This document shows, one piece after another, positions 22,255 through 38,171 of a stretch of DNA of 64,000 bases. The DNA lies in the NCBI GenBank assembly GCA_032358255.1, contig JAULBX010008884.1:49517-113516 (forward strand). Direction: 5' to 3'. Numbering within the stretch: the stretch's first letter is position 1; every line of letters starts with the position of its first letter. Made by a program: the position numbers and the translations under genes. Origin of the DNA: Heterotrichella gracilis. Its lineage: Eukaryota > Sar > Xanthophyceae > Tribonematales > Xanthonemataceae. The notes under the pieces were generated by a model that made no database searches, was not told where the DNA came from, and saw only the letters and a program-made list of their open reading frames with translations.

Positions 22255-25200
22255 CTACCAAGGCACCGCCTTCTTTATGCTGGCCAACCCATCCCGCATG
22301 AGCTCCTGCATGGTGGTAGGCCCAGCCGCGCCAGCAGACTTTGGTTGAGGCGCTGGCACAGGGGAAGGCATAGGAGAATTCTCCTCATCCGAATCGAACT
22401 GCGAGAACCCGGGTGAAGATGGCCCGTGGCTGTTGGGGGTGGGCAAGTGCTCCAGCACCTTGACCGCCACTGGCGCAACCTCCAGCGGTGCAGGGACATT
22501 GTGGGACTTGGTGGGTGAGAGGGCGGGGCCCCTTGCTGCACTTTGGGTGGGGCTGGATGGGAGCGAGAGCGGCGCGATGGCTGCAGCAATCTGGCCCGGA
22601 GGGGTGCAGAGCTCCTCTTCTTGAGGCTTGGCCTCTCCGGCCTCCACTGGAGCGTCTGCTGAGGTGGGACCCTCAACTGTCAAGTGGGCGGGCGGTGCAC
22701 CAGTCCCAGACAACACAGCTGTCTCCCCAGCAGCGGGTGTGGATGCCTCCACTGCTTCTGGTGCTGGAGTGTCGTCCAGGCTGACAGCCTCAGCAGCCAC
22801 AGGCGGTGCACTGGACACAGGCAGCGCAATTGGGTCGCCAGCGGCGGGTGTAGATGCCGCCACAGGCTCTGGAGGCACCTCCAGGCCAGTAGCCTCATCA
22901 GGCGCAGGTGCGCTGCTGTCTGCTGGCACCGCCTCGGGCGTGGCGCTCAGCCTGGGGGCGCGGCGGTGCTTTGGCGCTGGCGACCTGCCCGCTGCGCCTG
23001 CCTGCGGCGTGGTCAGCTTCTTGATGCGCGGCTGCTTCTTGGCGGTGGTCATCCGCTCAAGGCGCTTGCGCTCCTGCTCGTCCTTCAGGCGCTGCGCCTG
23101 CAGCAAGAGCACATACCACATAAGCGACAAAGCACGTTGATTAGAGCAGGCTAATAATGCGCGTCATCTGCATGGGGCATGGCCATCTCATGCATCATCT
23201 GTGCTCCAGTACAATGCAAACAAAGGAAAAAAAAACCATTACAAGATAGGCCCCCATGGCAAACACCGGAATTCTCTGTGATCTAGATGCGTATCACATT
23301 GAAAATAACTGACCAATTTTATGAAGCTAAAAAGTTACTTTGTGCCTGACGGCATGCGCGCCCACATCTGCCCCGGGCACTCACCTGTATCTCCGCAATG
23401 ATCTTCTCATACATGACCACAAAGTCGCGGATGGTGCGCAGCAGGCGCGTGGGGTCGTTCTTCTCGTACACCTCGCCAAAGTACCGCGTCAGCTCCTCAA
23501 GCGTGGCGTAGGTGCCGGTCTCGTGCGCCTGTGGGGGAGCAGCGGCATGGCCAAGGTCACAGCCACGCATGGGAAATAATGGCCTTCTTGTAGCATGCAT
23601 GAGAGCACCATGGAGTTTTGTTGGCGCCAGTGATGCAATCCACACAAATCAGAATGCGAATTTCAATTCTCAGCACTCCAACTTCTTATTTTTATTATTT
23701 GAGACAGCGGCCTATTCACACCCCTGTATTTTGCAATGAAACTGAATTTTAATGCAATATTGTTCCCCCACCTCCAGGGCCTTAAAGTTTGCTGTTGCCT
23801 CCTGGTGGAATGCCATCATGACGGCAGAGAACTCCTGGTGCTGGCAGTCGCCCTCACCCTCCATGCCCTCCGCCTTCATGATCTCGCTGTGGATCACAGA
23901 CAGGCCGCTGCGCAGCTCGCCCAGGAGGGTGCTGATGGCGCTCACCTGCGCACAGTGGACAGCGCAACCACCATGTCAGGCACCAGCCTCGGGATGTCAC
24001 CATTTACGCAATGTTAAGCACAAACGCCGGCAGTGGGTGCGCCCTGTAACCCTGCCCCAGAAGGTCCTAGAATCGCGCTAATTAGGTCAACAAAAGGGAT
24101 GAATACTTCCAGGATACAACTGCATTGTACCTGAGCGGCTGTCTGCAGCAATGCATGCAATCACAAAACTACCATTGCTGCAGCACGGTGGGTTTACCTG
24201 CAGGTTTGCCGCTGGCCGCACGTGCCTCAGCTCGGTGCCCATATGCTCCATGCTGGCAGTCTCTGGCAGCAGCTGCGTGACTACAAAGTGCAGCAGCGAG
24301 GTCTTCTTGTCGGTGCCCTTCACGTCGGCCAGCTTGAGCAGCGTGTCAAGCTTGAAGCCCTGGGCGGCACCGCGCATGGTGCCCTGCAGGAGGTGGACAT
24401 GGACAGTCACATGCGTGTGCCCAGGTGGGATGCACCACCAAATAGTACTCACGCGCCATGCACCACCTGTCCTTCACGGGTCTCCACAATATGCCAGCCC
24501 CATAAGTTTTGGTAGAAGCATGGGGTTAAGGTCTAGGCTGTTTGTATGCCATGCATGCCAAGACACATGGTGTGCATGCGATGATGGAATGCCTCTGCAT
24601 GCTTCCCGCTGGCGGCTGCCTCCCCCTGCTGCGCACCTCATTGAGCCTGTTACCCGTGACCAGCACCCCCTTGAGGATCTTCATGAAGTTGTCGCACTGG
24701 GTCAGCTGGGAGCAGGCTGTGCGCAGGAGGTCAAGGTGGTCCTTCACCTGAAGAGGGGGCAGGAGGTGCGGGGTGAGGCACAGGCACCATGTGAGCAGAC
24801 ATGAACACAAAACCATTGATGTCGCACCACCACCGCAAGTATGCCCTGCCTCCACACTGTCTGCAGCACACACCATGCAAAAATCCTGTAGCAGATGGAG
24901 CATTGCAGCCAAATGGTTGCTGGCCAGCGCTCGCCAGCCCCACCCACGCAGGGGTATCAATGCCACCTCAGCCGCCGCACGCACCTTGTCGTGCACGCTG
25001 GCAAAGGAGCGCGTGAAAATGAAGCACTTGATGCGCTGCTGCAGGCGCGGTATGTACATGACCTCAAGGAAGTAGCGCTCAACGGTGCCCAGCAGCTCGG
25101 GGTCGCTCAGCCCCCGGTGCTTGGGGTGCTCCCCCGCCAGGTATGCCTCCAGGTCCTTGCGCTCCTGCTCGTCGGGTATGGCGCGGCTGAGTGCGTCCAG

Positions 25201-28200
25201 CTGCTCAACGCTGAGGTCGCTCGCGTCCATGCTCAGCAGGGATTCCTGGGGCACAGGCAGGGCGGGTCAGCATGGCATGACATCACAAGCATTGGTTTGA
25301 ACGTGTCGACTCCAAGGGGGTTTAAAATCCTCTGAATTATGGCTGTACAATTACCATGATTACTTTCAATTTTAGGATTCCTATCATCACTAGCAGTTTC
25401 TGTTTCGAAAGTGAACTTTCACTGGTCACATGCAATCCCTCGTTCAATTCTGAATCCAAAACTAGTAAATTGTAACCTCGAGGATAAATCCATTTTAAAA
25501 TACAACACGAGTGCAACAGCAGCCAGATATAGGTAGCAGGGACATGCAGCCGCACACTGACCTTGATCTTGTTGAAGGGCATGCGTATGCCCGACAGCTC
25601 GATGCAGATGTTGTGCGCCCGCCTGTGCTCGATGATGCGTATCTGCACCGACTTTGTGGAAATCTTGCCCACCGCCTTGTTCTCCATGATCTGGAACAGC
25701 GACTCAAGCTCGGCAAAGTTGAGGTCGGGCACCTGCACCGATGTGCGCCCCCACACCGTGTTGCTGCCCGCGTTCTTGATCTTGTCCCAGTGCAGCTGCT
25801 TCAGCTTCTTGCGCTGCGTGGAGGTGGGGGTGGCCTGCGGGGAGCAGACAGGGGGTCAGCTTGGGCATATGTCGCATGGCCACGGCATGCTGGAGGGTCC
25901 GGGAAAGCGGTGGGTTGTTTGCCAGGAATCATGCCTGTGGCAACATAGCAGCTGCGCACCCCAGCATCATTGTGTTCACACTATATGGTATACTGCTAGT
26001 CTGGCTGTACACTACGTAAGTGCTGCTAGTCTGGCTGTACACTACTTAAGTGCATTAACCAACAGGTAGGCACTGACTGGTGCTGCAGCACACCACAGCT
26101 CACCTTGCCCAAGCCAGCCGGTGTCTTCCTGAAGGGGGTCTTGCCGCCGGGTGGTGGTGGCGGCGGTGGGGGGCCCTTGCCACCTGGAGGGGGTGGCGGC
26201 GGTGGAGGGGCCTTGCCACCCTTGGGAGGAGGGGGCGGGGGCGGTGGGGGGGCCTTGGCTCCTGGCTTCGGGGGTGGTGGCGGCGGTGGGGCCTGTGCCC
26301 CTGGCTTTGGAGGTGGTGGGGGAGGCGGGGGTGGAGCCTTGGTGGCTGCCTTGGGCTTGGGTGGAGGAGGTGGTGGTGGCGGAGGTGGGGCCGGGGCCTT
26401 GGCAGCTGGTTTGGCAGGCAGGTCTTTGAACATGGGCACCTCAGGCAGGGGCTGCTGCTCGCCGGATGCGCCCACCATACGTGCACGCTGGATGGCCGCT
26501 GCAATGGTTTGCGCGTTGATGGGGACCACATCTGGGTCACTGCCGCCGCGCTGCAGGGCGTTGCGAATGGCGGGAGCCTGCAGAAAGTCCCAGATAGTGC
26601 ATCACGTACAACGCCATGAGCATGTTCTGGGAAGTGGCACTAATCCGTGATGCAGTACCAGTGATCATGAGTGCTACACTTGGCATGCATTTCAGCAGGA
26701 TTTTATGAGATGTATATTAGTACCACCAAAATGACATTTCCTCTGACAAAATAAAAATGTTACACAGCTTCAAGCTACTATTTTTGCACAGCCCTGCCGC
26801 ACGTCCCACATCACCAGGGTAGAGCAGCGCTGCCCTCACCTGCTGCTTGAGGTATTCCGCCAGTTGCAATACGTCCATCTCGCCCATCCCCTCCCCGCTG
26901 CCCTGCCGCTGCTTGGCATGCGACACCGGCAACACCTCCATGCCCATCTCCAGCAGCTGGTCCAGTGACAGGCCATCGGGCACCCACACAGGCACCTCCT
27001 TGTCGTTGATGGTCATGCTGCACACAAGCACAGATGGCAGTGAGCACAACATGTGTGCTCGATGTGTGCGGTGAGGATGGGGAGTTGCTTTATACTATAT
27101 AATGCAATCCACAAAAGATTGATTTAATGCTTTGGTATCACAGGCTTACATATTTTGTAAATTTAGACCGAAGGCTATTTTTCGTTCAGAATTATCTTCT
27201 ATTTGGTACGGTATGACAAATGCATGGCAGCTATCTTTTTATTTCGAAATTAATTCTTATTTTGACAAGAGGCATCGAGTGCACACAGCAAGGCCATGCA
27301 CATCCAGCGCACAAAAGAAAAATTATGCACCACTCACATGAAGGGGGTCTGCATGTCGTACAGCGCAGGGATGAGCGGCCCGGGTGTAGAGTCCCCGCCA
27401 GCGGCTTGGTGCAGGCGCCCCATGACCACGCCCGCCTGCTGCCCCGCCATGTGCTCCGCCCCGCCCTCCTGCTGCTGTTGGTCTGCGTGCGGGTCATACG
27501 GCCCTGCCTCACCCAGCGCAGCCTCCTGGGAGCCCTGCAGCCCTGCAGGGGTATATGGGTACCCCCCAGGCGCCGCCCCTGCCCCAGCGGGGTGCGCGCC
27601 AGGTGTGGCCTCCCAGGACTTGGAGTTGGTGGGGTGGAAGGCAAAGCCCGCCCCGGCTGCTGCATCCCCGCCATGCTCCGCCTCATCCAGGGAGGCGACG
27701 GTGGCCCAGGCAGACAGCGGGGATGCTGCCGCCTCCTCGCCATGCCCATCCCCACCCTCCCCGCTGCTGGTGCGCAGGTGGTGCAGACCCTGCGGGGCCG
27801 CGAACGGCATGCCGCGCGCCTCCTGCCTGCCTGGCGCTGGACCATCCACTGGCGGCAGCTGGTTGATCTGGAGCTCCAGGGAGGCAAAGGTCTGGCGCAG
27901 GCGCGACAGGCTGTCAGACTCCTGGCGGTTGAGCGTGCGCTGGCCCGCGGGCACGGCAGCTGCGCCAAACATGGCCCCCCTGACTGGCGCGCGGGCTGGT
28001 ATCCCGCCACCTGGCGGTGCGGCCGCCCCGCCAATCAGCGGTGAGTGTGCTGAGCCGGGGGTGGCGACGCTCATGCTGGCGGGCGAGAGTGTCCCTGGTG
28101 TGCTGGCGATGGAGGCGGGCCTTGTGCTGGGGAGGGCTATGGACTTTGACATGAGCTCCCCAGCCAGGGTGCGGTGCTTGGGTGCCGACTGGCCCTTGGC

Positions 28201-31200
28201 GATGCGCGCGGACCGCTCCTGCGCGATCCTGGCCACATCGGCGGCCATGGATGACATGTCGGGTCGAGGGCCCCTGCGTGCGCCCGGCTGGCCCCCCTTG
28301 CCCGCCCTGGTCAGCGTCTGACTGCCGGGGGACAGCTGGGAGGATGCCTTGCCAGCCTGTGAGGTGCCCTGCCTGCCCCCTGTGCCCCCACGCCCACCGG
28401 TCCCGCTGCCATATGGTGCCTGCCCACCGTAGCCCGCTCCCGGGGGCTGCATGGCCACCACATGATCCGCATAATCCGGGCTGCTCATGGCGGGCGAAGC
28501 TGGTGCGCCGCCATAGGAGCCACCGCCGCCGCCTTGGTAGCCACCCTTGGTGGGGGTGGCATGGCTGTACCCCTGGCCTGGAGCTGCAGCAAAGCTCACA
28601 CTGCCCTGGTGGGCATAGCTGCCGGGCACAGCACCATCCGCTGCCTGCCCTTGACCACCAACACCATGACCGGCAACGCCAGTACCGTACATGTCATCGC
28701 CATCCAGATCCGGGCTGCCATCCCCACCATAGTAGTCACCTCCCTCATCCTCGCTGCTGCCCATGTCCCCCACCACCCCGCTGCCCCCGCCCCCATGCTT
28801 GGCCCCTGCCTGACCATACCGCTTGTCAGCCCCGTATGGATGGACATGTGGGGTGAACTGAAGCTTGCGCGTGAGGCCCGGGGGTGAGGGTGTTGGCTCG
28901 GTACCCACGCTGCCTGCTGCCCCAGAGCCTGCGAATCCAGACGCCCCGCTGCCGGCAGGTGGATACCGCATCGCCCCGCCAGCTGGGCGCGCACCATACC
29001 TGCCAGAGGGCTGTCCAGGGAAGCCGCCCGCAGGCACTGGCAGCCCAAGCTGATGCCGCCCCGCAGTGTGGGCTGACTGCACTGACTGCCACGCAAGCGG
29101 TGCCGCCCCCGCAACGGGCGCTGCCCCTGCCATAGGCGCTGCGCCTTGCGCCGGGCCGGCGCTGGGCTGTGCAGCTGCTGAGCGGGGGTGGAAGGGGAGC
29201 TCCACCATGTGGTGGTCTGCAGAGCCGGGGGTGTCGGCGGTGGCCACCACCAGCTTGGTGGGAGGGGATGACTCCAGGTCAGTTGCATCGGGGGTGTCGA
29301 TGTGCAAGGCTGGGATCCTGAAGGCGGCTTTGGCGCCTGGCTGTGGCACTGGTGTGTCGCAGTTGTTGCGCAGCTTGGCAGCAAGGTTGTGCAGCTTGGC
29401 CCCGCTGCTGGATGGAGGCTGCATGGACACATGTGCACCACGTTAGGGGAGCACTGAGGCAACAACCAATGCATGCATATCGCTAGGGCACGTATACACC
29501 ACAGGTCTGAGCATGTGCCAGACATGCACCAGTAATACGCAAAGAATTTGGGATACGCTCAGCCATAACTAGTACTACTGGTGCAAATGGATGGGATACA
29601 ACTGACAATGATGACTATTTACATATAACATAAATAGTTATATTTGTTAATGTTTACACAAAATAAGATAAATAATGATTTATTTTAAGTTTAGCGTGAT
29701 ATTTGTAGCTTGCTGCTACAGACGGGTAGGCATAGATGCTGACTTCCTGATGGGCAACAGCAGCATCTTGGGTTCCACTTACCGCTGTTTCAACGGCAGG
29801 CACCCCGTCAAATGAAGGAAGCCCCCGCTTGGCTTTCTTGGTTGGGCTGCATGGAATGGACGAGCTGCTTGGCTTGGCAGGCGACAGCATGCTCTTGGTC
29901 CTGGTCATCAGGCCCTTGGCCAGGGAGAAGGCCTTCTTCATGGGGCTGCCACCGCTCTTCACGCTGCTCTGTGATGCAACTACAGGGCCCGCATCGCCTG
30001 CAGGTAAAAGCAACATTGGGCTGTCAAGAAACCTGCTCCTGATCATTCACCCATGATGAATCATCATCCCACATGTGATTCACTACAGATGGTTGCAGCA
30101 TTTGGGATGTTTGGGCACACATAAACTGGTCGAGCTTTCACCATTCCCGCAGCTCCCGCCCCTCACCTGCTTCCTGGTTCGTGGGTGCCAGGGGTGGAAA
30201 GGCCAGGGGAGGGAACACCAGTTCCAGCTGCGACAGCGTGCTAGGCGTGTCCTTGAAGGGCGACTGGATCTCAGCCCAGCCCTGGTGGAAGGCGCGGCGC
30301 CCACCCGGCCCCAGCCGCAGCCCTGCAAGCCCGTCCTCCAGGGGCCCAGAGGCCTTGCTCACAGCATGTGGCTCTGACAGCCGCTCACTCTCCTTGCCCC
30401 CCACCACCGCACGCACCACATCCACTGGGATGCTGCTAGGGTCATGGCCTGCCCCCAGATGCCCCTTGCTGGCAGCCTCATGGTACACATCCAACGGGCT
30501 GCCATCCTGGCCAGGGCTCTGGATGTCAATGGTCGGAATGCCGCTGACTGACAGGTTGTGGTTCTGAGGAAGTAGCGCGTACCCCGCCCGCCCATTCAGC
30601 TTGTTCATCCGCCCAATGGCGGTGGCCATGGTGAGGGCCTTGACTTCAGCACTGGAGGAGGGAGGCGGGTGCACAGGGACAATGGCTGTCGCATCAGGGG
30701 CTGGGCCACTCACGGGCTGCGCCACGTAGAGCTGACCGTTGCGCCCCTTGGCCGCTTGCTGGTGCACTGCACAGTCTGAGCTGGTCTCAGTTGCCCCTGA
30801 CGGGCTGCGTGGGCGCTGCAGGTCGGGCCCATAGCTGGCCTGCTGCCCCACATCCGCCTGGTCGGCTGGATCCAGCCTGTGTGCAAAGCATGGCATCAGC
30901 ATGGAGAAAATGCTGATAATGGTAGCATAATGGTCACTATGAGTGCATTCACAACGGCACTACAGCAGTGCTTACCACCTCCGCTTCTGCCCTGCTATCT
31001 GGGGGCTGCTCCCACCGATGGCCCGTGGAACAAAGTCTTCCTCTGAGGACCTGCAAACACCACATATGATCCTGGTCAACATATCACCAAAACGGTTTAT
31101 AGAAACCCACAATAACTCATAAATAATGAGTCACAGCAAAAGGTTCATACCTGTGTGCTTCCCTGTCGCAGCTTGCGTCGTCTGGACTCCATAGCCCCTG

Positions 31201-32805
31201 GTAGCACAGGTCCAGGTTGTGAAAGAGAAATTCAAGTGAGAAAGGAAGGGGGAAGACGGGGGAAATAACTGGAAATGTATGTGGACAGCAGGCAGCCTTA
31301 CCGAGCTTGGCCTGCCATTCTCAAAGAGGCGAGAGCTGTACTCCTGGCGCCGAGTTGCAGTGTTGGCTCCTGCGTGGTGAATTGGGCCACCTGTAATACA
31401 CAAGTTCAGCTGACTATTTAAAAAAACATCCAGTTGACCCACCAACAGACAGCTTCAAAGGATTGACATACCTGGTGGCTTCCAAGGCCTGAGCTCCACG
31501 GCATGGCCAGCTTTGTTTTTTACTGCCACATCCGGCTGTGGGGGGACGATTCTGGTGGAGGGGCCAGCTCTGCCTTTGCCCAAGGCTGCATGGCTGCTTG
31601 CACCCAGGCGGGACGCTGCTCTGGAGGAGCCACTCCTGGCAGCCTGTGCTCTTGATACAGGCTGATCGAATGTGGTGGTCACTGTGACGAGCGGCTTGGG
31701 CTTGAAGGACTGTTTGGGAGGGAGCTGTTTAGGGTTTAGGGTCTGCGCTGTGCCTGCTGTGGCCCTTGCTGCCGTCAGGGACTGCACAGCTTTTGGCTTG
31801 GCTTGCTGCTTTGCCAGTCCCAAAGACCCAGCATTGCTGCGAGAACAGAAAATCGTGTCAACAACCATCCCAGGTACCAGACATAAAAGGTTTGGAGCGC
31901 TCAGAGCATAGAGCTGTTGTTACCTGAAGAAAAACTCTGTGAGGTAGATAATGGCTTCCACCTTAGACCGCACTGCTTCAACGTTTTCCAATTCTGTTGA
32001 AGTCCGCTCAGGTCTGAAGATAAGTGGGCCAAACACCTGGGCATACTGCCTGCCGGGGTTGCCAACTCGCCTCACCAGCGCGCACACCAGCTCCACCAAG
32101 GCTTCCAGTAGCGCTGCAACCATAAAAAATGGGTCAGTAACCCATATTTCAAGCCTGGACTAAGAGTACCTGAAGCTTCAGCGCATACCTCTGTTGTTGG
32201 CAGGCAAGCGGTCCAGCAGCATGTTGATGAATGGCTCAGTCTTGACGGGGTCCTTCTGCAGTTTCTCTTGGAAGCCAAGCAGTTGCAGGCACAGTGCTGA
32301 GGGTATGACGGGCTCACTTAGCTCTGCTAGCATGTCAGTGACTGCTGCCCCTAGGGCCACATACTCGCCAACGCCCACACCACCTGCACACCGGGAGATA
32401 ACACCAGGGGGGTGGGCAAGTGCAGGCAACGTCAGCCCTGAAACATCCACGGTTTCTACCATCTGGTCACTTGCCTGGGCCCACTGTTTGCAGGGTTAAC
32501 CTTATGCGCAGAACCTCATCAGAAACGACCTTTGGGAGGAAGATCATCCGCGGAAACCCAGGTTCGTTTGCTGCATGGCATAGTTGCGCGTTAGGCAAGT
32601 TTAGGAGCATACACACAAGCAGGGTGTTCGGTTCCCCACCTCTGGAGTGCAGCCATCGCAAGGACTCTGTTACTTGCTGCTGAGTTTGCCTGCTCCGCTC
32701 CAAGCGTTGCTCCTTGTTCCGCCTGTCGTCGAGCTTGCCTCGCAGCTCGTGGTTCAGTGCGTTTTCAGGGTGGGAGGTCAACATCCTTGCAATGCTCGCT
32801 GAGTG
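22255..32805 (-). CDS. RhoGAP-like domain / FH1-FH2 formin, very large
   Basis: Formins nucleate and elongate unbranched actin filaments. Minus exons: 32805(ATG 32784)-32475, 32383-32189, 32113-31924, 31836-31472, 31390-31302, 31197-31151, 31050-30976, 30876-30167, 29997-29783, 29418-27338, 27017-26840, 26577-26104, 25834-25562, 25245-24985, 24747-24637, 24383-24198, 23945-23772, 23528-23385, 23097-22255. They give 2306 aa from the 32784 ATG and every phase closes, so this is one gene. The N-terminus is RhoGAP-like ([37 protein letters not shown]), followed by a disordered linker of about 1100 residues. FH1 is Pro runs coded at about 26400-26130. FH2 runs from [10 protein letters not shown] through GNRLNE and [17 protein letters not shown] to a basic coiled tail ([14 protein letters not shown]). 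The last exon adds a Pro/Ala-rich tail. An extra 5' exon is possible because 32805 follows a good acceptor. One intron has a GC donor at 32474. Confidence 0.9.
25993..26052 (+). repeat. two-copy 30-base tandem repeat in a formin intron
   Basis: A 30-base unit beginning CTGCTAGTCTGGC occurs twice head to tail with one mismatch, inside the intron between 25834 and 26104. No function is evident. Confidence 0.85.
26130..26420 (-). repeat. FH1 polyproline tandem repeats (G-rich on + strand)
   Basis: About six imperfect units of roughly 40-60 bases encode runs of 6-11 prolines separated by Gly-Lys-Ala or Lys-Pro-Gly-Ala linkers. This is the profilin-binding FH1 segment of the formin. The plus strand is a near-continuous GGTGG/GGCGG tract, prone to secondary structure. 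Confidence 0.9.
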
Positions 32806-33343: not shown

Positions 33344-36300
33344 TTGAAGCGTGCTAGTGTAGACACGTTTTTATACATCAACGGACGTCTCCAAGGCAAC
33401 CCCAATCTGGGTAATCACCGCAAGTTGTGGGCTCCTCTTCCCTGGCATGCGCATGCGTCAGTGGGGTGTGATGTGCAAGAATATAATAGCATCGTCACAG
33501 TCAGCTATACTCCACACCTTGTGCAGAAACCATATTCAGACGTGATCACTGTAGTATTTGTAAAGACACATCATCAGCCACCCTCTGGTCCCATGCCACG
33601 ACTCACTCGGCCTCGCCCACCAGGGCACAAGCTGGGATACCACACTTGCACCAGCGACAGTGTCACCCAGTCCCAACACCCACAAACCTCCTCAGCCAGC
33701 TCACCAGAAGCCACGTGCAGCAGCAGCAGCCCCTTGACAGCCTTGCTGCGGCCCCATGCCCACACGCGGCAACCCCCCCACACCCCCTCCTCACAAGTCA
33801 GTCCTGGCTCGTCAAGGCATGGCAACCAGCATCAGGAACCTGACCAGCACCAAACCCTGCTACCAGCCCTATGGTCCAAGTTTGCGTCCCTGTCTGTGGA
33901 CAACTGGCAGCCTCCCAAGCTGCAGTGGCCAAAGTGGCAGGCGCCCAAGTTCCCGCAGTTCCCCACCCCCCTGTGGGTGGTGCTGTCCCCCCCTGGCCAC
34001 CCCACCAAGCGCAGGCTGATCACGGTGCAGGACTTCTTCAAGTACACAGAGGAGGAAGGTGAGCAGAAGCACCTGTTTAGGGTTTAAGGTTTGCACCTGT
34101 CACCTGGACCAACCACACTTCCCGCACGTACCTATGCTACTGCACGCCCTTCCCGTGCCTTACTGCATTAATTTACAAGCGCCCCACACAATCAGCCATC
34201 TGCACTCACCGGTGTACCAATGGACTGGGAGCACCACCTCACTGCCCCGGGCACCATTTACCCAACACATGCCGCCCTCCTACCCAGGCCGCAACTTCTT
34301 CAACTCCCTTGACCGGAACGGCGACGGGCGCATCAGCGTGGAAGACCTGCGCGCGGCCATGCGGCGACGCAACCTGCCTGAGGGCTACGCGCAGGAGTTC
34401 ATCAAGACGGCGCGCCAGGCGCGCTGGTGGGCCAACTCAATCACGTGCGTGCGCCCTAGGGTGCCATACATGCGTAGGGTTCAGTGTGCAATGTAGGGTT
34501 TGGTATACGCTTTAGGGTTTGGTGCGTGGGCTAGGGCTTGCTGCTCGCTTTAGGGTTTAATGTTTGCCCTGGATTCGAGGGATGTAGGGCGCCGGGTACA
34601 GGACACTGCTGGGTACAGGGCACTGCATGATGAGCAAGCCCTTGGTCTCAACCTCCTCTCTAAACCAAAAACCCGCAACCCTTAACCTTAGACCCTCCGC
34701 CGCCCTGCAGGTGGGAGGAGTTCCAGGGCGTGATGGACGAGCGGGAGCCCAAGATGCTGCGCGCATTCACATCCATGGGCCTCAACTCTGCTGGGCGCCT
34801 GGGCCTGGCAGACATCAAGTCCAGCCTGGAGAAGCTTGGCCTGCCTGCCACAGACAGCAATGCACGGGCAATGCTCAAGTGAGGGGTAGTGGTGGGGGTG
34901 GGCCGGGGGAACTGGTTGGGATTGTTGGGCTTGCGTTTGTGCATGGGACGGGTTGTGTGCATGGGCTGCATGGGCTGTGCCATTTGAGTGCTGGGTGCAC
35001 CCGCTCCGGTTCTGATAGGCACATCATCTCCCAACGCCATTGGTCTGCACCCCACGCATCCCCCTATGATTGAGCCCGTCTGCGTGCATGGGCAAGACTC
35101 CCACATGTACATGCTGCGCTCTCTATTCACCACACCTGCATGCATGAGCATGTATGTGTACCTTCAGCTTGTCAAGTTGGCGGCACTGCAAAAAATGCAT
35201 GAGGCAAGTAAATTATGAAAATCCTGCTTTGACCGCACGTTTGGCTGACCCCCCCCCCTCCTGGGCTGCGCCTGCAGGGCCATAGGCGGCGAGGACGACG
35301 GGTTTGTGTCCTACGGCAAGTTCCGCAACTTTGCCATCCTGCTGCCGCAGAGGGAACTGAGACTGGCCGAGCGCAGCCTTGCCTGGTTTGAGTCAGCAAC
35401 CATGGTGCCGCTAGGTAGGGGGTGCGGTGGTGGGGTGTGACGCCGGCTGCAAGGGTGCTGTGCGTAAGCGCTGCGTGAAATGCTTACTACTGTCCTTTAA
35501 GATTTTAAGGAAATTTACATTTTAACACCTTACCCGTAATCAATTACAGGCTGATTACGCAGCCTGTTTTTGAAGTTGTACCTATGACCAAATGATACAA
35601 CTTTATCTGGTCATAGGTACACAGATGGTACAATGTGTGCTAACGCAGAGGCAGGTGGTGCACTTAGTGTCAGTGCAAGGCTGGCTGCTTGTTTTGGAAG
35701 TAGTGCTAGAGCGTATGCAGCAAATCTTAAATAAAGTAATTTGCCTGGTCCACAGGCCCTGTGCTGGACGAGTCTGGTGCCACGGGCAAGATGCTGGTCA
35801 CGGCAGCGCTGGCGGGGGGCATCGCCTCCTGCTGCTCCACCCTGCTGCTGCACCCCATCGACACCCTCAAGACCCGCATCCAGATCAGCGCCGGCACCTC
35901 CATAGGCCAGCTGCTGGCCACCGTACCCTCCATAGGGGCCCGGGGGCTGTACCGCGGCATCGTGCCGGCTGCCACGGGGTCGTTTGTGAGCCACGGGACC
36001 CGCACGCTGGCATACGAGGCGGTGCTCAAGTTGCTGACTGCGGCCACGGGGGGCGTAGGAGAGCTGCAGGTAGGGTGGGAAAGGGGAGGGAGGCAGGGTA
36101 GATGCAGGGGGTATAGATTAGGGGATATTCTAGTTCCTCTGGTACTGGCAGGGGGGGCATAATGGTGTGATGTAAAATCCCTGGCATGGGGTGTGGGTGT
36201 CCTAGTTTTGGAAGGGGCAGTAGTATGCCAGATGTGTGCATTAAGTGGGATTTGTGTGTCATGATCCGCCACCCTGCTGAGCACAAATGTTGTTGTCATG

Positions 36301-38171
36301 ACCCTAACCTAGGGTTTGACAACCCAATCCTCCTTGTGTTTGCTCTCTGCTCTCCAATGCAATTAGCATAGACTGCCATGCACACCCAAACCCCCGCTGA
36401 ATGTTCCCCTCTCCCTCGCGTGCAGCTCCAGGGCCTAGCATCAGGCGCCGGCACCCTGCTGGGCACATCCATCCGCATACCCTGTGAGGTGCTCAAGCAG
36501 CGGCTGCAGGTGGGGACATAACCCTAATTCCCTAACCCTAAACACTAAACCCCACCTGCAGCCGCTGTCTGAGCATACCCTGTGAGGTGCTCAAGCAGCG
36601 GCTGCAGGTGAGGCCACAACCCTAAACCCTAAACCCCACATCCATACGTATACCCTGTGAGGTGCTCAAGCAGCGGCTGCAGGTGGGGACACAACCCTAA
36701 ACCATAAACCCCACATCCATCCGCATACCCTGTGAGGTGCGCAAGCAGCGGCCTCAGGTGGGGAGACAAGGGCATGGCGGTGCAATTTTGTTGGCTGATA
36801 CCTGGCTTGTTGTTTCCACATGACCACCAAATGCTTCAAATAGCAAGCTGATGCAGTACATCATGTGCTGCATTATGTCTGTTACTCTACAGGCAAACAA
36901 AAGAAGAAAAATCAAATCCAGATTAATCATATCTGTGCATCTGCTGTGTTTCCTTGTACACCTGGAGGTCGCCGCTTCAATCCGCCGCGGACCGCCTGTC
37001 ACAGGTTGGTCGCCATGCAAATGCTGCCGACGCCATTCGTGCGGCAGTGGCAGTCGACGGCGTGCGCGGCCTGTTCCGAGGCACGGCAGTGACCCTGGCG
37101 CGGGAGGTTCCCTTCTATGCCTTTGGGATGGTGGGGTACCAACAGCTGAAGAAGGCGCTGCGAGGTGGGTGGGTGGGGAAGGTGGTGGTGGGTGAGGACA
37201 AAAATGCTTTTTGTGGGTGGAAGCAAAAACCCTGAATGTGAGACCCACGCTGCAACCCACAACCCTTTTACCCCCTGCAGGCGAGCTGTGGGGGGGCCGC
37301 GTGAGGGAGCTGGAGCCATGGGAGACCATCGCCCTGGGTGCACTGGCAGGCGCCATCGCCGCGGTGCTGACCACACCCGGGGATGTGCTCAAGACGCGCA
37401 TCATGACCGCGCCGGCAGGGTCCAAGCTGACGGTCCCCGGGATTGTGATGGACATTATGAAAACTGACGGTCCCAAGGGGCTGCTGCGGGGGGCGGTGCC
37501 GCGCATGCTGTGGACCGCGCCGCAGGTGGGTGGGTGGGGCCGGAAAGCGTTTCACATTTTTTATTTTATTTTACATAGATGCGTCTAGTGGTAACCTGTA
37601 TCAGGAGAGCCTGTGTTGAATGAAATCAAGTGTCGAATTTTGGTATGATGTCCATGAATTGTGCACAAGGCACGTTTGCAGCGGGGTACGCAATGAGATG
37701 CATGAGCAGGGTGAAACAATGCATTGCTGTGGTTGCCGCGCCCATGATTTTGCACCAGGGCCAGGACATTTGAACCACGCCACGTGTACCTCACCGAAAC
37801 TCCTTGCCTTCCCTCAGCACTGTGCCTTGGCGTTGGCTACGTTGCAGATAATCAGCAAAAAACAGTACTATAGTATCATTTTCAATCCCTTTTCCGCCCG
37901 TGTACCTCACCTGGGCGCCTCCCCTTCCCTGAGCACTGTGCCTTGCCATGGGTTGCAGGGCGCCATGAACTTTGCCGGCTACGAGCTCGCCAAGAAGGCG
38001 CTGTCATCATCCTCCGCAGCACCTGCCAGCGCCAGTGGGGCGGGTGACAGTAGTGGGGCAAGTGGGGGGCCCAGTGGTGGGGCAAATGGGGGGGGGACGA
38101 GCAAGAGCAGCAGTACCAAGGAGGGAGAGCCAGTCCAGGTGAAGCAGCCAGCTGCCAGCCCCGCCACGTGA
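33344..38171 (+). CDS. SAMTL: SAMTL-type mitochondrial carrier family protein with EF-hand-like N-terminus
   Basis: Membrane carrier of the SLC25 family. It is most like the plant S-adenosylmethionine-carrier-like protein (SAMTL), which pairs calcium-binding-like motifs with three carrier repeats. Exons: 33344-34058, 34288-34444, 34711-34878, 35278-35414, 35756-36069, 36426-36509, 37005-37164, 37281-37525, 37959-38171; phases close. It is 730 aa from the 33344 ATG or 647 aa from 33593, and the start is uncertain. One clear EF-hand loop (DRNGDGRISVED) is followed by degenerate ones. The three carrier signatures are HPIDTLK, IPCEVLK and TPGDVLK, with RGLYRG, RGLFRG and KGLLRGAVPR, and a family-specific GAMNFAGYELAKKAL end. 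A Ser/Gly-rich tail of about 55 residues follows. Intron 36510-37004 holds extra copies of the preceding exon end. The substrate is inferred from family only. Confidence 0.9.
35577..35621 (+). repeat. 14-base inverted repeat in a SAMTL intron
   Basis: Arms 35577-35590 (TGTACCTATGACCA) and 35608-35621 are perfect reverse complements with a 17-base loop. They lie in the intron before exon 35756. No flanking duplication marks it as a mobile element. Confidence 0.85.
36475..36757 (+). repeat. four tandem copies of an exon-end/splice-donor segment in SAMTL
   Basis: A 35-base segment coding IRIPCEVLKQRLQ and ending in CAG before a GT donor occurs at 36475-36509 (the real exon end), 36573-36607, 36648-36682 and 36723-36757. 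Spacing is 98, 75 and 75 bases. Each copy is followed by a GTGAGG- or GTGGGGA-type donor; the first three are then followed by telomere-like AACCCTAA words. Copy 4 has two or three substitutions. Copies 2-4 are intronic in the model. Confidence 0.95.
36553..36610 (+). repeat. 15-base inverted repeat around SAMTL exon copy 2
   Basis: 36553-36567 (CACCTGCAGCCGCTG) is the exact reverse complement of 36596-36610, the end of duplicated segment 2 plus its donor. The transcript could fold into a hairpin that buries this extra donor. Confidence 0.9.

Follow-up and report, generated by a model that had tools for sequence, protein, structure and literature searches.

Does one algal gene join a RhoGAP-like domain to an FH1-FH2 formin and, if so, does its product bear on how Rho signalling came to be coupled to actin? 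The question was raised by a sequence-only reading of the stretch of DNA analysed here (64,000 nucleotides, hereafter the window). Based on gene modelling, profile searches and genome-wide searches, we consider it probable that the locus is a single gene for a formin of Class III architecture, in which a degenerate RhoGAP-like domain devoid of GAP activity has been kept as a Rho-independent binding or positioning module.

One open frame across the locus

Joining the minus-strand exons gave one frame that remains open up to its only stop codon (Table 1); it comprises 19 or 20 exons and codes for 2277 to 2306 aa depending on the splice reading. All readings share eighteen introns, 17 of them GT-AG and one GC-AG, and all junctions are in phase. 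The readings differ in exon 1, in which nine frame-keeping introns are possible under the search rules used; we weighed three of them, plus the reading without an intron. The latter, with 19 exons and 2306 aa, corresponds to the model first proposed for the locus (19 exons, about 2300 residues and no phase break). One extra intron of 42, 69 or 87 bp also leaves the frame open and gives products of 2292, 2283 and 2277 aa, respectively.

Table 1. Features of the formin locus in window coordinates; exons are numbered according to the 20-exon reading.
Feature	Position	Strand	Characteristics
Whole gene	22255..32784	minus	ATG (32784) to stop (22255), joined open frame, 19 or 20 exons
Exons 1-4, RhoGAP-like domain	31924..32784	minus	Pfam RhoGAP and small profile
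Exon 1/2 junction, alternative introns	32639-32571 (69 bp), 32616-32530 (87 bp), 32612-32571 (42 bp), or none	minus	within 32639-32530
Intron 2	32474-32384	minus	GC-AG, donor CAG/GCAAGT
Exons 5-11 with introns, linker of ~1,200 residues	27338..31836	minus	Ala/Gly/Pro/Ser rich, no Pfam domain
Intron 10, the longest	29419..29782	minus	two TGTAA words; in-frame ATG 6 bases before exon 11
Exon 12, short pre-FH1 stretch	26840..27017	minus	no Pfam match
Exon 13, FH1	26104..26577	minus	six poly-proline runs of 7-10
Exons 14-19 with introns, FH2	23385..25834	minus	Pfam FH2 287.4 bits; PDB Daam1 E 5.4e-30
Exon 20, C-terminal tail of 280 residues	22255..23097	minus	mostly low complexity

Splice-site scores, trained on the 18 other introns of the same gene, favour the 69-bp intron (donor 7.2, acceptor 7.1) over those of 87 and 42 bp. 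A profile built from three RhoGAP sequences favours the 87-bp reading, which scores 24.4 bits and aligns to profile positions 9-156 of 160; the other three readings score 20.0, 19.5 and 19.3 bits and align in their C-terminal halves only. Nevertheless, the sites of the 87-bp intron (donor 3.8, acceptor 4.3) are both below those of all 18 other introns, whose minima are 6.5 and 6.7. Thus, the two lines of evidence favour different readings of the exon 1/2 junction. The 42-bp intron was dropped as the preferred reading, as its donor scores -0.5 (acceptor 7.1), compared with at least 6.5 in the 18 others.

It is unlikely that the open frame covers two neighbouring genes, the first for a RhoGAP-like protein with its end in exon 10 or close to it and the second for an FH1-FH2 formin starting at the in-frame ATG before exon 11. 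The two parts do differ in composition, with introns 1-8 of 42-104 bp (by reading) vs 237-364 bp for introns 10-19, and with third-position GC of 0.50-0.73 in exons 1-8 vs 0.85-0.92 in exons 14-19. However, third-position GC does not change abruptly at the proposed gene border (0.71-0.74 in exons 9, 10 and 11), and mixed intron lengths are also found in other genes of this genome. Seven small-GTPase genes, counted by hand, have at least two gaps separating their profile matches; the last gap is longer than the first in five of them, and in three the difference is clear (under 90 vs at least 178). TGTAA is the polyadenylation signal of chlorophycean algae, and the presence of two such words in intron 10 would suit a gene end at that position. 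Nevertheless, exon 10 ends with a GTAAGT donor and is joined in phase to exon 11, and the first stop met when the frame is read on from exon 10 overlaps the first of the two TGTAA words. Furthermore, both domains are found in one protein in the Class III formins.

The formin core and the RhoGAP-like domain

The FH2 domain is complete, matching positions 4-371 of the 372-position Pfam profile (E 2.3e-85), and it contains GNRLNEG followed by GFKL. Its nearest PDB sequences are those of Diaphanous-related formins, Daam1 being the best and mDia1 another, and no plant formin is named among the 19 PDB matches. The predicted protein shares the FH2 domain with these formins but has a RhoGAP-like domain instead of GBD/FH3, for which the Pfam scans of all exons gave no match. 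No FH2 relatives were found in the viral_contigs collection, searched with FH2 alone and with an alignment including Daam1, or in genome_contigs, searched with the alignment. Elsewhere in the same genome, FH2 matches are above the cut-off on two contigs (C673 and C897) and below it on a third (C24).

Pfam scans of pieces covering all exons detected only FH2 and, near the cut-off, RhoGAP, beside weak sub-threshold rows for DUF4351 (17 bits), Beta-lactamase (11.7) and S100PBPR (12.5). There is thus no PTEN domain, the hallmark of Class II plant formins. Hydropathy peaks at a 19-residue Kyte-Doolittle mean of 1.27 (2277-aa reading) inside the RhoGAP-like domain, so that the membrane helix that, with a secretion signal, typifies Class I is not apparent either. 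The earlier claims that the model has neither of these hallmarks, and that it holds RhoGAP-like, FH1 and FH2 regions in one open frame, were borne out by these analyses, FH2 being strong and RhoGAP around the cut-off in the Pfam HMM search. In the 87-bp reading, the low-complexity linker spans residues 203-1396. We take the last residues of the protein (window 22258-22311) to resemble, loosely, DAD/WH2 tails.

The RhoGAP-like N-terminus is real but weak, as judged from several comparisons. Its Pfam RhoGAP matches have E values of 2e-5 to 1e-4 across pieces and readings. The first 267 aa score 22.7 bits, below the cut-off of 24.5, and exons 3-4 alone score 24.9 bits (E 2.1e-5). Six splice variants score 23.2-24.1 bits, the highest being the variant without the finger region. 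In all six the alignment begins downstream of the finger region, at profile position 62, and never includes the N-terminal half; exons 1-2 alone have no Pfam match. A phmmer search of the PDB with the domain found no sequence, and no second copy of it was detected in the genome, as the three matches obtained with an E limit of 1 all correspond to the window.

Controls indicated that the similarity exceeds that of shuffled sequences. With the three-sequence profile, which scores the readings at 19.3-24.4 bits, 1000 shuffles of the 87-bp reading gave at most 9.2 bits. Pairwise comparisons of the 42-bp reading gave a mixed outcome, the real score being reached by 15 of 500 shuffles against the RhoGAP protein encoded on contig C420, by one of 500 against p50 and by none of 500 against ARHGAP15. 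We also ranked 3345 six-frame ORFs from the window and the loci, with overlapping loci counted repeatedly. Exons 3 and 4 of the window gene (7.2 and 5.4 bits) came directly behind the C420 exons, which had helped to build the profile, and the next ORF scored 4.3. Individually, both exons are weak with the RhoGAP profile (E 0.69 and 2.5).

The C420 gene (L048, C420:147000-156900, minus strand) is the only other RhoGAP gene found in the genome. It codes for a clear RhoGAP domain, with a Pfam score of 69.6 bits after exon joining. Unlike the window formin, it is much closer to canonical RhoGAPs and has no FH2 match on its contig. Its C-terminus, which has no Pfam match, is presumably reminiscent of FAM13 proteins.

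Class III formins, the host and its small GTPases

Plant Class III formins were defined by Grunt et al. in 2008 (PMC2386819). The members given there are Ostta1 and Ostlu1 of two Ostreococcus species, Phypa7 of the moss Physcomitrella and Selmo2 of the lycophyte Selaginella, with Micromonas added on brief inspection. RhoGAP-type N-termini had been mentioned for moss and lycophyte formins in the sequence-only reading, and that paper confirms it. An algal example had been considered informative on Rho-actin coupling before land plants; an alga does harbour such a formin here, but algal cases had already been reported in 2008. Like the described members, the window gene codes for an N-terminal, diverged RhoGAP-like domain and an FH2 domain in one protein, with no PTEN domain or membrane helix. 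The predicted protein therefore has the architecture of plant Class III formins and, by this architecture, represents a known kind.

The same authors mark Chlorophyta as lacking Class III (their Table 2), suggest that the absence from volvocine algae is derived and tied to the loss of Rho, and place the origin of the class before the split between prasinophytes and chlorophytes. Reviews of 2012, 2013 and 2024 repeat the association of Class III with a RhoGAP-like domain, and that of 2024 mentions one expression report and otherwise knows of no functional study for the clade. Among the papers listed in our literature searches, none dealt with Class III formins of core chlorophytes.

The known hosts are prasinophytes and land plants, in apparent contrast with that of the window formin. 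Its assembly comprises 68.5 Mb in 903 contigs and codes for a large light-harvesting family (43 matches). The CP26 protein of this genome matched the PDB sequences 6kac (392.8 bits), 7pi0 (390.4), 9is4 (383.0) and 8bd3 (351.8), and 12 sequences passed 1e-60. We take 6KAC to stem from work on Chlamydomonas, 7PI0 from Dunaliella and 8BD3 from Chlorella ohadii. As CP26 is nearest to the Chlamydomonas and Dunaliella proteins, the host is probably a core chlorophyte, and probably a member of the Chlorophyceae, judging from this one protein. Plastid rbcL had no match in the assembly, and the plastid genome is thus probably missing from it.

Exon-by-exon searches of the 903 contigs recovered Rab, Ran, Arf and Miro GTPases but none of the Rho/ROP type. 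A ROP1 query gave five matches (11 candidates scored). The best, at 32% identity, is a protein that we take to be the Miro GTPase by sequence likeness, and the other four (37-42% identity) have the Rab-like motifs DTAGQER or DTAGAER. The Ras family search gave 44 matches, of which 30 were at loci examined and the other 14 scored 30.6 bits or less. No Rho-type G3 motif occurs in 47 examined loci, including the formin and RhoGAP loci, in which Rab and Ran types are present. Two degenerate Rho motif patterns had no match in the genome. RhoGDI, PRONE and DHR-2 had none either, with queries that were also silent in every control genome. The RhoGAP family search of the genome detected the C420 gene, as its single match and below the cut-off, but not the window's own exons, which limits such negatives.

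Grunt et al. (PMC2386819) proposed for Class III formins in general that they keep the link from Rho to actin, with the inactive RhoGAP-like domain binding GTP-loaded Rho and tying the formin to membranes. For the window formin, such a role as Rho effector appears quite improbable, given the lack of detected Rho/ROP, RhoGDI, PRONE and DHR-2 in the genome. Furthermore, according to a 2025 review (PMC12445832), the loss of RHO took place at some point prior to the divergence of core chlorophytes from prasinophytes. This wording could include prasinophytes with Class III formins among the Rho-less lineages, in which case the window genome would not be the first such case.

Catalytic residues, possible role and neighbouring features

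The arginine-finger motif GxFR, searched as G-[ILVMF]-[FYL]-R in the first 110 residues, is absent from all four readings, as it is from the described Class III formins. The finger column holds Val in the 87-bp reading, whose N-terminal half aligns gap-free through the finger. In the other readings, Lys or Arg (GFPR, then a 7-residue insert) can be placed there; the Lys placement, by eye, sets LPKVVSD against LFKVRGD of the C420 protein, whose finger column also holds Lys. Both RhoGAP genes found in this genome possibly have a finger residue other than Arg. Lys and Asn are contact residues of p50rhoGAP; in the window formin, the Lys column is occupied by Thr or a gap and the Asn column by Gln. 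In the four described Class III formins, the downstream Lys is instead Leu. The lack of GxFR and the replacement of both other contact residues make it likely that the domain has lost GAP activity. It is very improbable that the formin is fused to a domain with GAP activity, towards Rho or towards another small GTPase, even though readings other than that of 87 bp allow an Arg or Lys to be aligned close to the finger.

The protein had been considered to bear on the coupling of Rho signalling to actin. With no Rho/ROP found and a host resembling a group reported to be devoid of RHO, and with the GxFR motif missing and the two other contact residues replaced, the window formin does not support that coupling. 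By analogy with the formin family, an FH2 dimer would nucleate and processively cap actin, and FH1 would feed profilin-actin to it. The RhoGAP-like domain would not act as a GAP but would bind or position the protein via a non-Rho partner, for instance a different small GTPase, a partner in the membrane, an adaptor or the tail of the formin itself. We hold it possible, if short of probable, that the module outlived Rho, a core chlorophyte without Rho GTPases keeping it on an FH1-FH2 formin for a conserved, Rho-independent job (another GTPase, a membrane partner or autoinhibition).

In the scenario of Grunt et al., a Class III member is to be expected in a core chlorophyte. One without detectable Rho is not, and it tests the Rho-actin link directly. 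The value of the finding lies in the apparent survival of a RhoGAP-like module in a Rho-less lineage, which reverses the earlier interpretation. Given the sparse functional study of the clade, a tractable alga carrying such a formin would also be useful.

A divergent neighbour lies on the plus strand (window 33594-37600), with exons that match the mitochondrial carrier family (Pfam Mito_carr) and an EF-hand-like exon near 34320, identified by eye. This gene would share an upstream region of ~800 bp with the formin gene, provided that its start is near 33.6 kb. Between two of its carrier exons is a 75-bp tandem repeat (window 36573-36769; 2.6 copies, 91% matches), the unit of which contains CCCTAAACC words. 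Short stretches of telomere-like CCCTAAA/TTTAGGG words are present at window positions 31725-31745 and 34490-34560, and a double unit lies inside exon 5 of the formin gene.
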